DNA from: a virus | Reading direction: 5' to 3' (one strand) | IMG/VR virus record: IMGVR_UViG_3300007559_000016 | Span: 1-31,044 of that record | Length of the DNA: 31,044 nt | Shown: piece by piece, positions 9,639 to 16,418 of the stretch | Position numbering within the stretch: the stretch's first letter is position 1 | Layout of the letters: each line of letters starts with the position of its first letter | Program-made: the position numbers and the translations under genes | The notes under the pieces: generated by a model | The model's input: the letters and a program-made list of their open reading frames with translations, nothing else | Told to the model about the DNA's origin: nothing | Database searches by the model: none

Positions 9639-9794
9639 ATGAAGAAAGAGAAGAAATATGTAACGGAGATAGTTCCAATTACCTACGAGAAAGCAGGTCG
9701 CCCGAAGATAAACAACGCAAAGATAGTCAAGGCATTGATACCAATTGAGAGAATTTGCGAATTTAAAGAAGTGGTTAAGTCATTTCAGAAATAG
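9639..9794 (+). CDS. Small basic protein of unknown function, 51 aa
   Basis: ATG at 9639 opens a 51-codon frame to TAG at 9792-9794. The basic product contains AGRPKINNAKIVKALIPIER and a C-terminal Lys/Val helix (EFKEVVKSFQK). The stop codon touches the first hairpin site of the cassette-like array (site A). The gene may therefore be the last gene of the phage operon or the end of a cassette whose left border is not visible. No family is recognised. An overlapping longer frame (9545-9748) is an alternative, but its sequence looks non-coding. Confidence 0.55.
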   Translation: MKKEKKYVTEIVPITYEKAGRPKINNAKIVKALIPIERICEFKEVVKSFQK

Positions 9795-9864
9795 CGTATA
9801 ACGGTTACAGCTATGCGTCAGGTTTTGTTTTTCACAAAACTTGCGTATAGGTGGTGTTACCTGC
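9794..9864 (+). repeat. attC-like hairpin site A (left end of array)
   Basis: TAAC (9799-9802) faces GTTA (9856-9859). Inside, CTATGCG (9811-9817) pairs with CGTATAG (9844-9850, one wobble), and GTTTTG (9822-9827) pairs with CAAAAC (9835-9840) around a 7-nt loop. The spacer after TAAC is about three bases longer on the left side than on the right. The right arm GTTACCTGC matches, reverse complemented, the left arm of site B. The left arm GCGTATAAC has no visible partner upstream, so A may be the original insertion point. Confidence 0.75.
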
Positions 9865-9929
9865 TGGTGCGGTTAATTTAGGACAAACTTAATACGAAGA
9901 ACGAAATAAAAATTTTAAATAAAAAAAGC

Positions 9930-10736
9930 GTGGGAAATTTTAACTTAGATACAGACGAACAAAAAGAATGGTATAGTATAAGCACTAACCGAAGTAGTGA
10001 ACACTTAGGAGATTGCTTAGAATTGATGCCATTGATAGCAGATGAAAGTATTGATATGATACTTTGTGATTTACCTTATGGAACAACGGCTTGTAAATGG
10101 GATACGATAATACCATTTGACAAACTTTGGGAACAATACGAAAGGATTATAAAGCCAAATGGAGCAATAGTGTTGACTGCCTCACAGCCATTTACAAGTG
10201 CATTGGTAATGAGCAATACATCATTATTCAAATACGAATGGATTTGGGAAAAGCCAAAAGCAACAGGACACGCATTAAGCAAAGTGCAACCGATGAAAGC
10301 ACACGAAAATATTTTGGTTTTTGGCAAAGGTAAAATAAATTACTACCCACAATTTGAAAATGGCGAACCATACAAAGGGAGGAACAAACCAAAATATAAA
10401 GAGAGTGATGAATTTTCAACTGGATATGGAAACAGAAATAATAATGATGGATTTAGATTTCCAAGAAGTGTGCAGTTTTTTAGAAACACGCAATATGTGA
10501 ATGAGCAAATACACCCTACGCAAAAACCGACAACTCTTTGGGAGTATTTGATTAAGACATACACTAATGAAGGAGATTTGATACTTGATAATTGTGCAGG
10601 AAGCGGAACGACTGCAATAGCCTGTTTAAATACGAATAGAAAGTATATTGTAATGGAGCAAGAAAAGGAATACTATAACAAAGGATTAAAACGAATACTT
10701 GAATGGGAACGAGAACAAAAAAACAAATTGTTTTGA
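9930..10736 (+). CDS. DNA methyltransferase, beta-class, N6-adenine/N4-cytosine type
   Basis: The 268-aa enzyme should transfer a methyl group from S-adenosylmethionine to an exocyclic amine of adenine or cytosine. The catalytic motif IV is DLPY (residues 47-50, in LCDLPYGTTACKWD), followed by IKPNGAIVLTASQPFTS. The SAM-binding motif I, DNCAGSGTT (220-228), comes late, as in the beta order. HPTQKP lies before it. The start is a GTG at 9930; no ATG lies before the conserved LGDCLELMP region. It is the gene of cassette unit 1. No restriction partner is nearby, so it probably protects phage DNA against host restriction. The target sequence is not predictable. Confidence 0.88.
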   Translation: MGNFNLDTDEQKEWYSISTNRSSEHLGDCLELMPLIADESIDMILCDLPYGTTACKWDTIIPFDKLWEQYERIIKPNGAIVLTASQPFTSALVMSNTSLFKYEWIWEKPKATGHALSKVQPMKAHENILVFGKGKINYYPQFENGEPYKGRNKPKYKESDEFSTGYGNRNNNDGFRFPRSVQFFRNTQYVNEQIHPTQKPTTLWEYLIKTYTNEGDLILDNCAGSGTTAIACLNTNRKYIVMEQEKEYYNKGLKRILEWEREQKNKLF

Positions 10737-10813
10737 AAAAACAAAAGTGCGGTGGCTTTTTATTTAAAATTTTTGAACACGAAAGTTTGATACGAAGCAC
10801 TAATGTAGCACTT

Positions 10814-10893
10814 GCAGGTAACGGGTTGCAACTAGCTATTGGGCTTTCTGGAATATGTATTTTCAAGCCTAATTGCTAGATGCTGTTAGTGGC
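10814..10893 (+). repeat. attC-like hairpin site B
   Basis: Left arm GCAGGTAAC (10814-10822) and right core GTTAGTGGC (10885-10893) enclose a long stem: 10832-10846 against 10865-10879 pairs at 14 of 15 positions, counting one wobble. GCA (10828-10830) pairs with TGC (10881-10883). The spacer after TAAC is five bases on the left and one on the right. The left arm is the exact reverse complement of the right arm of site A. Confidence 0.85.
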
Positions 10894-10927
10894 TGTATTT
10901 AATTTCAAACAATAATTTTAAAACAAT

Positions 10928-11167
10928 ATGAATTTAATAGATAAAAAGTCAAAAGTTGCATTATGCACAAACTGTAAAGGATTCGTTTTAGCTTCTCATA
11001 TAGACTATATTACTAAACAAACAGAAAAAGAGTTTACAGAGTTTACAAATGAAGGATATGAAGTTAAAATTGAAACACTTCAAGAAACAAAAAAAAGAGA
11101 TTTTGTTTTCAGTTCAGTATTAAATAATGGCAAATGTGAAGATTGTAATGGTAAAACGGGCAACTAA
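10928..11167 (+). CDS. Small zinc-ribbon-like protein (cassette gene)
   Basis: The 79-aa product carries CTNC (near residue 14) and CEDC (near residue 71), two CxxC knuckles on either side of a charged helix-strand middle (YEVKIETLQETKKRDFVFSS). This arrangement suggests a zinc ribbon that could bind nucleic acid or a protein partner. It is the only gene in cassette unit 2. The leader is A-rich and ends AAACAATATG. No family is recognised; metal binding is inferred from the cysteines. Confidence 0.65.
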   Translation: MNLIDKKSKVALCTNCKGFVLASHIDYITKQTEKEFTEFTNEGYEVKIETLQETKKRDFVFSSVLNNGKCEDCNGKTGN

Positions 11168-11176
11168 CATCATATT

Positions 11177-11258
11177 GCCACTAACGTTTTGCAACTAAGT
11201 GCTACGGCTTAACAAACACAGTATATTTCAGCCGTTGCTCTTAATTGCTGTTAGCAGA
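11177..11258 (+). repeat. attC-like hairpin site C
   Basis: Left arm GCCACTAAC (11177-11185) is the exact reverse complement of the right arm of site B. GCAA (11191-11194) pairs with TTGC (11245-11248). TAAGTGCTACGGCT (11196-11209) pairs with 11230-11243 apart from two mismatches. The right core GTTAGCAGA is at 11250-11258. The left spacer GTTTT is four bases longer than the right one. The terminal loop is about 20 nt. Confidence 0.85.
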
Positions 11259-11289
11259 TGCTTTTTTTATACAATTAATAATAAAATAT

Positions 11290-11652
11290 ATGTCAAGAGA
11301 ATTAAAGTTTAGAAGTTGGAATTTAGAAACAAAATTTATGTACGATAACATTGAAAATGGCGTTGTTGCTAAAAATCAAAAAGGTAATTTTGTTTTAGGT
11401 CTTTCTTTTAATGCAATATGTAGAGATTTAAACTCTATTGTAATGCAGTTTACAGGCTGTAAAGATAAAAATGGTAAAGAAATTTACGAATATGATATTG
11501 TTTCATTTGAAGATTTCCCAAATGAAACAATAGTTTTTAAATATGGAACTTTTGGATATGATGGAATTATAGGTTTTAATTCTTTGTTAGACACCAATCT
11601 ATCTATTTCAGAAGTAGTCGGTAATATCTACGAAAATTTAGATTTGTTGTAG
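11290..11652 (+). CDS. YopX-family protein (cassette gene)
   Basis: The 120-aa product fits the YopX family of small phage proteins, whose molecular role is unknown. MSRELKFRSWNLETKFMYD opens the N-terminal domain. QFTGCKDKNGKEIYEYDIV and the final VVGNIYENLDLL form the characteristic second half. The start is the ATG at 11290, after the leader AATAAAATAT; an in-frame TTG upstream lies inside site C. It is the gene of cassette unit 3. YopX proteins are common in phages of many phyla, so a cassette carrying one may have come from another phage. Confidence 0.8.
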   Translation: MSRELKFRSWNLETKFMYDNIENGVVAKNQKGNFVLGLSFNAICRDLNSIVMQFTGCKDKNGKEIYEYDIVSFEDFPNETIVFKYGTFGYDGIIGFNSLLDTNLSISEVVGNIYENLDLL

Positions 11653-11664
11653 TCGTAGTAAGTT

Positions 11665-11800
11665 TCTGCTAACGGTTGAGTATAACCGAAGTTGGCGATT
11701 AAATAGTAATAACTTTCAAAATACAGATAAAGATGGAAAATGACACAAAAGCAACAACCACAGATACCACCGCCAATTGCGGTTATACTGTGTTACCAAC
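11665..11800 (+). repeat. attC-like hairpin site D with long loop
   Basis: Left arm TCTGCTAAC (11665-11673) is the exact reverse complement of the right arm of site C. AGTATAACCG (11679-11688) pairs perfectly with 11780-11789, and TTGGCG (11692-11697) pairs with CGCCAA (11771-11776), nearly a continuous 19-bp stem. The right core GTTACCAAC is at 11792-11800. The terminal loop is about 73 nt and contains the ATG of the next reading frame. The left spacer is longer than the right, as at the other sites. Confidence 0.85.
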
Positions 11801-11981
11801 TGTGCTTTCATTAGAGGAAATTCTAAGGGATGCAGTAAGAAGGCAAGTAACATATCAAGTGCAATTTGCCGACTATGACTTAAACACTTGGACAGTTCCT
11901 TGTATATTGACACAGAATAGAATGGATATGTTACTTACCGATGCTTCAATTCGCAAAGTTCGTTTGGAACTGGAATTTTAG
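11733..11981 (+). CDS. Small protein of unknown function (cassette gene), start uncertain
   Basis: The 82-aa reading frame starts with ATG in the loop of site D and runs through the right arm of the hairpin. The first 23 residues are Thr/Asn-rich. They come from site DNA and would not travel with the cassette if the break is at GTT. An in-frame GTG at 11802 would give a 59-aa product (LSLEEILRDAVRRQV onward) that lies wholly inside unit 4. The C-terminal part (VTYQVQFADYDLNTW, KVRLELEF) looks like a compact alpha/beta domain. No family is recognised. I list the longer frame but consider the start open. Confidence 0.55.
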   Translation: MENDTKATTTDTTANCGYTVLPTVLSLEEILRDAVRRQVTYQVQFADYDLNTWTVPCILTQNRMDMLLTDASIRKVRLELEF

Positions 11982-11994
11982 CATTGTTGGTAAC
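11981..11994 (+). repeat. Left arm of a fifth attC-like site (site E, degenerate)
   Basis: GCA-TT-GTTGGTAAC mirrors GTTACCAAC-TG-TGC at 11792-11805, so it closes cassette unit 4. A weak inner pairing (ACAATAT with ATGTTGT, around 12010-12030) follows, but no clear right core with GTTA-N5-TG is seen. The site is either degenerate or fused to flanking phage DNA. Confidence 0.6.
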
Positions 11995-12040
11995 TACCTA
12001 CTACCCGAACAATATCGCATAAATGTTGTATAACCGATAC

Positions 12041-12077
12041 AAATAACTGTCTAAATATTAGGCAGTTATTTTTTTTT
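12041..12077 (+). terminator. Intrinsic terminator after the cassette array
   Basis: An 11-bp stem (12041-12051 with 12061-12071, one T.G wobble) closes a 9-nt loop and is followed by Ts to 12077. It ends any transcript of the array before the promoter at 12110-12140. Confidence 0.9.
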
Positions 12078-12109
12078 GTTAATTATTTTAAAAATAATGT
12101 GAATAAAAC

Positions 12110-14203: not shown

Positions 14204-14231
14204 TTTAATTAAAAAAAGTTAACTATATTTG
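14204..14231 (+). promoter_or_regulatory. Bacteroidota-type promoter for the helicase-methyltransferase
   Basis: The -7 box TATATTTG (14224-14231) has a weak -33 (TTTA at 14204-14207) 16-17 bases upstream. The surrounding AATAATAAAAAGGTA and TTAAAAAAAGTT match the first early promoter almost base for base. The ATG follows 21 bases after the box. Confidence 0.55.
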
Positions 14232-14252
14232 CACAAATTAAAACTAAAAATT

Positions 14253-16418
14253 ATGAATGATTACACAAAATTTCTTGAAACAAAGAAAAAAACTTTTATA
14301 TCGAGTGGATTCGATATAGATGAAAATGAATTAAATATCAATCTTTTCGACTTCCAAAAATATGCAGTTAAAACCGCTTTAAATAAAGGCAGATTTGCAT
14401 TATTCTTTGATTGTGGTTTGGGTAAAACTTTGATGCAATTAGAATGGGCTTCACAAGTAGTAAAAGAAACGAAAGGAAATGTTTTAGTTTTAACTTCTCT
14501 TGCAGTTGTTGAACAAACAAAAAAAGAGTTTCTTAAATTTGGTATAGATAATTCAAATATTGATGTTTTAAATTACGACCAATTATCAAATATTGATACT
14601 TCAAAATATACTGGAGTTGTTTTAGATGAAAGTAGTATTTTAAAAAATAATACAGGAAAAACAAGCCAGTTTATAATTGATAATTTTAAAAAAACTCCTT
14701 ATAAATTAGCTTGTACTGCTACACCTTCACCAAACGATCATATTGAGTTAGGTCAACATTTAGAGTTTTTCGGTTATGATACTTATGAAAATATGAAATC
14801 AATGTTTTTTGTTCAAGATCAAAAGATAAAAACAAATGATAAATGGAGACTTCGAAAACATGCTATTGATGATTTTTGGAAATATATAGCGACTTGGTCG
14901 ATGGCTTGTGATAACCCAAAAACATTAGGTTTTAATAATGATGGTTATGATTTACCTGAAATTGAATTTATTGAGCATATTATACCAGTTGAAAATAATA
15001 CCGATAATTTATTTGGAGATGTTGCAGTTTCAGCTACTGATTTACATAAAGATTTAAATCGTTCATTTGATTTAAGAATTGAAAAAACAATTGAATTAGT
15101 TAATCAAAATGATAATCAATGGTTAATTTGGGGATTGAAAAATTCAGAAACAGATTTAATTGTTAAAAAATTAGATAATGCTATAAATGTGCAAGGTTCT
15201 GATAAACCTGAATATAAAGCAAAGTATTTAAATGGTTTTGCAAATAATGAATTTAAAACATTAATTACAAAGACTTCTATTGCTTCATTTGGTATGAACT
15301 ATCAAAACTGTAATCAAATGATTTTTATGAGTTATGATTTTAAATTTGAGGCTTTTTATCAAGCAGTAAGAAGATGTTATAGATTTGGACAAAAGAATAA
15401 AGTAACGGTTCATATTTTAATACCTGAATCGCAAATTAATGTTAGAAATACAATATTGAAAAAACAAGAACAACACTTTGAAAGAATTAAACAAATGGCT
15501 AAATATACCGCAGATATGAATTATAAAGAAAATATTGAAATTGACGAAGTAAAAGAAACTGAAATAAAAACAGAAAATTACTGGTTATTAAATGGTGATT
15601 GTGTAGAAGAAATTAAAAAACTAAAAGATAGTAGTGTTGACTATTCTTTTTTTAGTCCCCCATTTTCAGACTTATATACTTATTCCGATGATCCTAGAGA
15701 TTTTTCAAATGTTAAAAATGATGATGAATTTTTTGCACACTTTCAATATTTAGTTCCTGAATTAAATAGGGTTTTAAAAAACGGTAGATTAGTTTCAATG
15801 CATATAATGCAAGGTACTACTGGAATTGGAAAAGATGGGTTTTTATCAATCAAAGATTTAAGAGGTGATTTAATTCGTTTATTTCAATCTAATGGTTTTT
15901 ATTTTCATGCTGAGGTTATGATTCGTAAAAGTCCGCAATTAGCCGCTATAAGAACTAAAAACACTCAATTAATGCATGGTCAAACAAAACGAGATAGTTC
16001 AATTAATAGACCAGGACTTGCAGATTATATTATTACATTTAGAAAACAAGGTAAAAATGAAGTGCCAATTAAAAATGATATTGATTTTGATACTTGGTGC
16101 AAACTTGCAGAACCAGTATGGATGGATATAAATGAAAGTGATACTATTTCTAATTTTAGAAAAGCAAGAGGATGCAACGATGAAAGACATATGACACCAA
16201 CGCAATTAACTGTTATAAGAAATTGTTATTTATTATGGAGCAATAAAGGAGATGTTTGTTTTAGTCCATTTGGCGGTGCTGGTTCTGAGGGTTGTCAAGC
16301 TTTAAAAATGGACCGTAAAAGTATTAATATTGAATTAAAAAAATCATATTTTAATCTAAATGCTTATAATCATAAAGCATTTGAAACTGAAAAAAACAGT
16401 ACGTTAACACTATTCTAG
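14253..16418 (+). CDS. SNF2-like helicase fused to a DNA methyltransferase
   Basis: The 721-aa protein has two enzymes. The N-terminal part carries helicase motifs: Walker A-like DCGLGKT (53-59), Walker B DESS (125-128), motif III TATPS (155-159) and motif VI QAVRRCYRFGQ (370-380). This is an ATP-driven DNA translocase. The C-terminal part (from about 445) is a beta-class amino-methyltransferase with catalytic SPPF (468-471) in the segment VDYSFFSPPFSDLY and the SAM-binding FSPFGGAGSEG near 670-680. SPPF suggests N4-cytosine or N6-adenine. The start is the ATG at 14253; an in-frame TTG at 14229 lies inside the promoter. Such fusions occur in phages, probably for DNA modification coupled to replication. 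Confidence 0.88.
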   Translation: MNDYTKFLETKKKTFISSGFDIDENELNINLFDFQKYAVKTALNKGRFALFFDCGLGKTLMQLEWASQVVKETKGNVLVLTSLAVVEQTKKEFLKFGIDNSNIDVLNYDQLSNIDTSKYTGVVLDESSILKNNTGKTSQFIIDNFKKTPYKLACTATPSPNDHIELGQHLEFFGYDTYENMKSMFFVQDQKIKTNDKWRLRKHAIDDFWKYIATWSMACDNPKTLGFNNDGYDLPEIEFIEHIIPVENNTDNLFGDVAVSATDLHKDLNRSFDLRIEKTIELVNQNDNQWLIWGLKNSETDLIVKKLDNAINVQGSDKPEYKAKYLNGFANNEFKTLITKTSIASFGMNYQNCNQMIFMSYDFKFEAFYQAVRRCYRFGQKNKVTVHILIPESQINVRNTILKKQEQHFERIKQMAKYTADMNYKENIEIDEVKETEIKTENYWLLNGDCVEEIKKLKDSSVDYSFFSPPFSDLYTYSDDPRDFSNVKNDDEFFAHFQYLVPELNRVLKNGRLVSMHIMQGTTGIGKDGFLSIKDLRGDLIRLFQSNGFYFHAEVMIRKSPQLAAIRTKNTQLMHGQTKRDSSINRPGLADYIITFRKQGKNEVPIKNDIDFDTWCKLAEPVWMDINESDTISNFRKARGCNDERHMTPTQLTVIRNCYLLWSNKGDVCFSPFGGAGSEGCQALKMDRKSINIELKKSYFNLNAYNHKAFETEKNSTLTLF

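Follow-up and report, generated by a model that had tools for sequence, protein, structure and literature searches.

A probable integron-type cassette array in a tailed Bacteroidota phage, with related arrays beside a tyrosine recombinase in Bacteroidota genomes

Integrons are usually portrayed as found mostly in Proteobacteria and as run by IntI, and the spacers of canonical attC sites are of roughly equal length. It has been reported that an additional domain is a defining feature of IntI and is necessary for its activity (PMC9668308), and a single complete integron, in Salinibacter, is named within Bacteroidetes itself in the IntegronFinder 2.0 paper (PMC9024848). Qi et al. (2023) described integrons in phages and, in virulent phages, integrase-free clusters of attC sites (CALINs) with methyltransferase cargo; two attC sites of Polaribacter phage P12002L were assayed with IntI1 in E. 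coli, where one of them underwent recombination with attI1 (PMC9892861). The DNA analysed here, referred to as the window, is the 31,044-bp linear virus contig IMGVR_UViG_3300007559_000016 from IMG/VR, which has a GC content of 30.6% and no terminal repeats, and which encodes portal, large terminase, tape measure and primase-helicase proteins. Positions 9794–12024 hold four same-strand units, each composed of one long imperfect hairpin and one gene, and the sequence evidence makes it very probable that this locus is an integron-type cassette array in a tailed phage of Bacteroidota. The four units had already been described in the original prediction, made from the letters of the window, and all four hairpins were recovered in place.

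The strongest sign of such an array, overlooked in that prediction, is the 9-nt inverted repeat by which every unit closes. In each unit of the window, the 9 nt that begin with GTT equal, in reverse complement, the 9 nt that finish with the following AAC; the match is exactly 9 nt long, and beyond it the two diverge. All units lie on the plus strand, and closure is exact in 4/4: unit 1 (9802–10821; hairpin A and a DNA methyltransferase gene at 9930–10736) closes with GTTACCTGC/GCAGGTAAC, unit 2 (10822–11184; hairpin B and a zinc-ribbon-like gene at 10928–11167) with GTTAGTGGC/GCCACTAAC, unit 3 (11185–11672; hairpin C and a YopX gene at 11290–11652) with GTTAGCAGA/TCTGCTAAC, and unit 4 (11673–11993; hairpin D and a gene without recognised family at 11733–11981) with GTTACCAAC/GTTGGTAAC. 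Cognate ends are identical at 9/9 positions, while non-cognate ends agree at 5–7/9. Of 272 pairs of neighbouring hairpins in related loci, 190 show exact closure, whereas 500 shuffles gave 6.2 on average and never more than 15. Exact inverted unit ends of this kind are what the excision of circular cassettes would predict. The unit boundary lies at the left core (TAA|C, or G|TT on the bottom strand), so that unit 1 starts at the C at 9802, and not in the right core, where a boundary after the G of GTT had been proposed; each unit thus consists of a hairpin and the gene that follows. The fourth gene has its start codon within the loop of hairpin D and its reading frame crosses the right core, which also indicates that a hairpin and its following gene form one unit; a start inside the hairpin is found in 22 of 66 forward units elsewhere.

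The hairpins share the layout RYYYAAC, about 5 nt, a stem of 18–20 bp with fixed mismatches, a variable loop, about 1 nt and GTTRRRY. A covariance model (R1) was built from 42 bacterial sites, with the window sequence kept out of training, although the training loci had been found with a phage-derived pattern. On the window, R1 matches only site A (9794–9862, hairpin at 9796–9862, plus strand, E=1.2e-5), site B (10816–10891, plus strand, E=1.2e-4), site C (11179–11256, plus strand, E=1.1e-7) and site D (11667–11798, plus strand, E=2e-13), which lie within 2.0 kb, and the remainder of the 31 kb gives no match at E = 1 or better. A scan of the window for AAC, hairpin and GTT also recovers sites A–D. 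Site A reads R'' GCGTATAAC, hairpin, R' GTTACCT. In the 42 host sites, compensatory double changes occur in 17 of 18 stem pairs; their consensus stem is mismatched in places, without bulged (extrahelical) bases that recur consistently. Single-site DNA folding is just moderately below shuffles (z -1.4 to -4.5), so the argument is carried by covariation and closure. The left spacer in the window is about 5 nt and the right 1–2 nt, which bears out the asymmetry noted earlier; the 73-nt loop belongs to D. The cores had been called non-canonical, but the flanking R cores are of the ordinary RYYYAAC/GTTRRRY type, and the oddities lie instead in the spacer asymmetry and in the recombinase.

Whole units are gained and lost at exact points in related phages. 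The relatives examined were 38 viral contigs having the upstream gene in common. Six of them (L003, L007, L008, L009, L010 and L015) have an empty site in which TTTCAGAAA joins AAATAATTTATYAATAACTGTC, with the left flank ..TTTCAGAAAAAATAATTTATYAATAACTGTC, and others (L004, L005, L011, L013/L014, L033/L035 and L036) hold different units between the same flanks; the right boundary at the attI-like end stays constant in relatives holding other units. Cultured Flavobacterium phage isolates of Muminvirus, Lillamyvirus and Hattifnattvirus are about 97–100% identical over shared DNA, and the arrays of this Mumin group, about 9–15 units long, vary in that whole units have been inserted, lost or reordered: stinky9-1 is without U05 and U16, both of which hemulen6-1 has; lillamy9-7 is without U17, which lillamy9-6 has; and U04 changes position along the array. 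The final U35 of lillamy9-7 (2.4 kb, reverse open reading frame) is probably a unit chain overrunning the true right end. Breakpoints between the cultured phages fall at TAA|C, i.e., bottom-strand G|TT. A hairpin–methyltransferase cassette with a near-identical hairpin is common to mymlan6-1, L005 and the window, and since identity begins exactly at TAAC, with a different left side, the hairpin travels with the following gene and the crossover lies at the left core. A blast of the array against phages outside the Mumin group returned chiefly plain methyltransferases. The original prediction was to be abandoned if relatives kept all four genes with gradual divergence; the opposite, precise unit-by-unit presence and absence, was found.

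It had also been suggested that Bacteroidota genomes be searched for the same hairpins, and there they are present phylum-wide, adjoining a recombinase in bacteria. A degenerate pattern of the phage sites matches mainly Bacteroidota genomes, which hold long arrays with closure, and a minority of matches stand under other names, mostly without closure. The site lengths of host arrays L042–L217 fall into classes of about 75–90, 122–130 and 184–190 nt, the middle class being dominant. The tyrosine recombinase family beside such arrays in bacteria is named Bint here. Eleven genomes have both features in reach, and in all of them the best tyrosine recombinase is found at whichever end of the array has no hairpin. 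In 10 of these 11, the final closure falls no more than 206 nt from the recombinase gene, at the motif AAC-TNNYWWATATNCGMAAC. Among loci from evenly drawn genomes, a closed unit adjoins the recombinase in 8 of 30, with flanks of just 1.5 kb. A sample of 247 Bacteroidia genomes was drawn independently of the phage-derived pattern, with at most 13 sites scored per genome and a recombinase threshold of E < 1e-80. Sites were found in 184 and a recombinase in 128: 122 had both, 6 the recombinase only, 62 sites only and 57 neither, giving an odds ratio of 18.7 (p = 8e-16). In a control phylum, a site was found in 1 of 79 genomes. Beyond site D, the window carries an attI-like end on the minus strand at 11986–12024, where GTTGGTAAC is followed by TACCTACTACCCGAAC.. 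(minus strand ..GTTCGGGTAGTAGGTAG|TTACCAAC), and which agrees in position with the attI-like motif beside the host recombinase genes, a motif drawn up by visual inspection of about a dozen ends. This putative attI-like motif is a fifth element of the window array that was absent from the original prediction.

The genes of phage and host cassettes point in opposite directions relative to this end. With attI set at the right and polarity called from the longest open reading frames, 149 host cassette genes are reverse (pointing away from attI) and 13 forward, whereas phage cassette genes point toward attI (53 forward, 1 reverse); counted as distinct units of the cultured phages and the window, 43 are forward and 1 is reverse. 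All four genes of the window face the attI-like end, which is the phage pattern. One methyltransferase family is encoded in minus frames by host cassettes and in plus frames by those of phages. A single contig of a bacterial metagenome-assembled genome, L140 (JADLGN010000018.1), supplies three of the 13 forward host units; because one of these three is 53% identical to a Mumin-group unit, the contig looks phage-derived, and it is probably a misbinned phage contig. A generalisation that Bacteroidota integron genes point toward attI, based solely on phage units, was abandoned because the host units are opposite. The original prediction had offered a captured cassette array or a phage-borne relative of integrons; the integron type holds, but simple capture from a host does not, the genes being inverted relative to host cassettes.

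Bint differs from IntI in the region between the catalytic boxes. Against NCBIfam, 4 of 5 tested Bint proteins are nearest to NF040815, a XerA-type family, and 1 of 5 to TIGR02249. TIGR02249 had been tried as a recombinase marker and was dropped, its cut-off being exceeded in 0 of 15 genomes and its matches being split in two; it was this split that led to the finding of the missing insert. The spacing from GxRxxE to HxLRH is 91–94 aa in 44/44 Bint, compared with 133 aa in 5/5 IntI, and the IntI-specific insert of about 40 aa between the catalytic boxes is missing in 44/44 Bint. In a maximum-likelihood tree, Bint and IntI stand together, apart from Xer and XerA (100/97), and the IntI sequences, of which the tree has only 5, form their own clade (100/100) with Bint outside; whether Bint is a single clade is not settled by the tree, partly owing to one long-branched Agrobacterium sequence. 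The IntI references were taken from plasmids because true IntI was not found in six non-Bacteroidota genomes searched. The N-terminal extensions of Bint are very unequal in length (274 to about 600 aa; L205 and L210 compared with L207 and L209), the longer ones having a WSxxxxxWYLPD-type domain. A search of 15 whole viral records found the recombinase in 2, about 45–50 nt past the last closure: L169 (minus strand, 1546–2349) and L188 (3966–4799) each have a Bint-type recombinase downstream of forward-polarity units and are apparently complete phage-borne integrons. Neither yielded a terminase of one broad family, so it is by their IMG/VR classification that they count as phages.

In the window, the array is bounded by a stop codon on the left (9794) and a terminator-like hairpin on the right (12043). 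Upstream there is an ERF recombination gene, and the last gene before the array (9639–9794, plus strand) ends in a TAG stop that serves as the constant left flank (..TTTCAGAAATAG), which related phages also have. The terminator-like hairpin (12043–12078, plus strand), identified in a repeat search, forms the constant right flank, and flank alignments place it in the empty-site phages too. As for the cargo, the identities proposed earlier are upheld by Pfam for the methyltransferase of unit 1 (N6_N4_Mtase PF01555, 1.3e-29; PADLOC MTase_II, 1.8e-93) and for YopX of unit 3 (PF09643, 2e-19); the zinc-ribbon-like product of unit 2 has only a weak Yippee match, under the cutoff (0.0068), and the unit 4 protein matches nothing in Pfam or PADLOC. 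Outside the array, at 14229–16418, a 729-aa protein fuses a SNF2/DEAD-type helicase with a DNA methyltransferase domain.

The system is best read as a new integron variant that is not within the IntI-defined family; it is integron-like, widespread in Bacteroidota and, apparently, previously undescribed. The folded hairpins would act as attC-type sites, presumably as single strands in vivo, and Bint would most likely cut the bottom strand at G|TT (plus strand TAA|C), whereupon whole units could be inserted, removed or reordered at the attI-like end during phage replication. The enzyme would be supplied in trans by the host, about half of the sampled Bacteroidia genomes having Bint, and we infer that most phages depend on it. 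The cargo of methyltransferases, YopX and small genes of no assigned function may have been selected in phage–host conflict, and the inverted polarity in phages would fit transcription entering the array from the phage operon at the left. A wider picture, which we regard as reasonably likely though less firmly than the nature of the window locus itself, is that of a Bacteroidota integron lineage whose IntI-sister recombinase is without the supposedly essential domain, and from which phages have domesticated a polarity-inverted pool of cassettes, swapped between unrelated phages through the host enzyme, with a few phages carrying the enzyme themselves.

Other explanations can be weighed against the same evidence. 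That the phage merely took up ordinary cassettes with IntI-type attC sites, as a canonical CALIN, has a precedent in the published CALINs of virulent phages, among them P12002L, in which one site recombined under IntI1 (PMC9892861) and which also has four closed units of the present kind; it is nevertheless improbable, as the recombinase stays under the IntI cut-off in 15/15 genomes and is without the IntI insert in 44/44, the spacers are of 5 and 1 nt without consistent bulges, and the phage polarity is opposite to that of the host. Phages are mosaic, only 2 of 15 phage-array records have a recombinase and hairpins could also influence transcription, so that units might move among phages by homologous or illegitimate recombination only, the hairpins being relics or regulatory elements such as terminators or mRNA structures. 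This we judge very unlikely: the same core nucleotide recurs at many junctions without shared flanks, exact inverted 9-mer ends are not a product of homologous exchange, and in hosts such sites end at a recombinase. An Rfam search gave nothing above chance, and terminators or structured RNA were rejected on those chance-level matches and because they leave the unit-private closing ends unexplained. The short inverted repeat at the ends of every unit would also suit an array of transposons or miniature inverted-repeat transposable elements (MITEs), but every unit has repeats of its own that the others do not share, the empty site has no target-site duplication, no transposase lies in the array, and the mobile unit is a hairpin plus a gene, which leaves this explanation with next to no credibility.

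Several observations weigh against an integron-type array run by Bint. The window record contains no recombinase, although it may be incomplete. In one of the 11 host genomes (L216), the recombinase lies 2.6 kb from the last closure, and 62 of the 119 Bacteroidia genomes without a strong Bint match still have sites; either it is common for an array to have no enzyme next to it or a different enzyme takes part, and these 62 could reflect degraded integrons, gaps in the assemblies or another recombinase. The attI-like match of the window was judged by eye, at 14/16 positions, and the right end of the Mumin phages fits the attI-like motif poorly. Homologous recombination between phages could account for part of the whole-unit differences, and recombination is read from the comparison of sequences.

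If the integron-type reading is right, its implications extend beyond the window. Integron-type sites are present in about three quarters of the Bacteroidia genomes sampled, and a matching recombinase that lacks the IntI-specific domain in about half; if Bint is active, that domain would be dispensable for integron-type recombination, and comparison would reveal what it contributes. For lytic phages, such arrays would offer a concrete route to exchange anti-restriction genes singly, and some of the extensive variable gene content of Flavobacterium phages would be explained by them. It has been reported that those lytic Mumin phages isolated on LMO9 that plate at reduced efficiency on LMO6 are without a methyltransferase that the others have (PMC7077304). 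With cultured, fully sequenced Flavobacterium phages that differ in their arrays and show a methyltransferase-linked plating difference, the idea is directly testable.

Compared with known systems, part of the variable gene pool of Muminvirus and Lillamyvirus, phages of Baltic Flavobacterium, would consist of such cassette arrays; the main text of Nilsson et al. (2020) mentions neither integrons nor cassettes (PMC7077304). No description of a Bacteroidota or phage system of this kind was found in open-access papers, the search leaving aside subscription journals and preprints. The window resembles the CALINs of phages in its integrase-free cluster of four attC-type sites, with no Bint in the record, and in its methyltransferase cargo. 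The main text of Qi et al. treats two P12002L sites, in divergent directions, as IntI-type, and the study describes neither a host system nor an attI-like end, the polarity of the genes or variation by whole units (PMC9892861); P12002L itself holds four closed units of the present kind. With integrons proper (class 1, Vibrio and archaeal), the system shares RYYYAAC/GTTRRRY R''/R' cores, cassette-private closing ends, a folded imperfect hairpin, an attI-like site beside a tyrosine recombinase and mostly single-gene cassettes, which in bacteria face away from attI. Of the features that mark an integron in the working sense of the term, an attI-like point by the recombinase is seen in the hosts, and complementary R''/R' ends with a folded imperfect hairpin are present as well; the sites depart from attC in having unequal central spacers, of 5 and 1 nt, and no consistent extrahelical bases in the stem. 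Unlike IntI, Bint has no additional domain of about 40 aa near patch III, stays under the TIGR02249 cut-off and falls outside the IntI clade, and the phage cassette genes are inverted. Towards XerA, XerC and XerD, the likeness lies in the box spacing of Bint (91–94 aa), which is near Xer-like, and in the best score of most tested Bint against NF040815 ('site-specific tyrosine recombinase/integron integrase'); unlike Xer and XerA, Bint groups with IntI (100/97) and adjoins cassette arrays.

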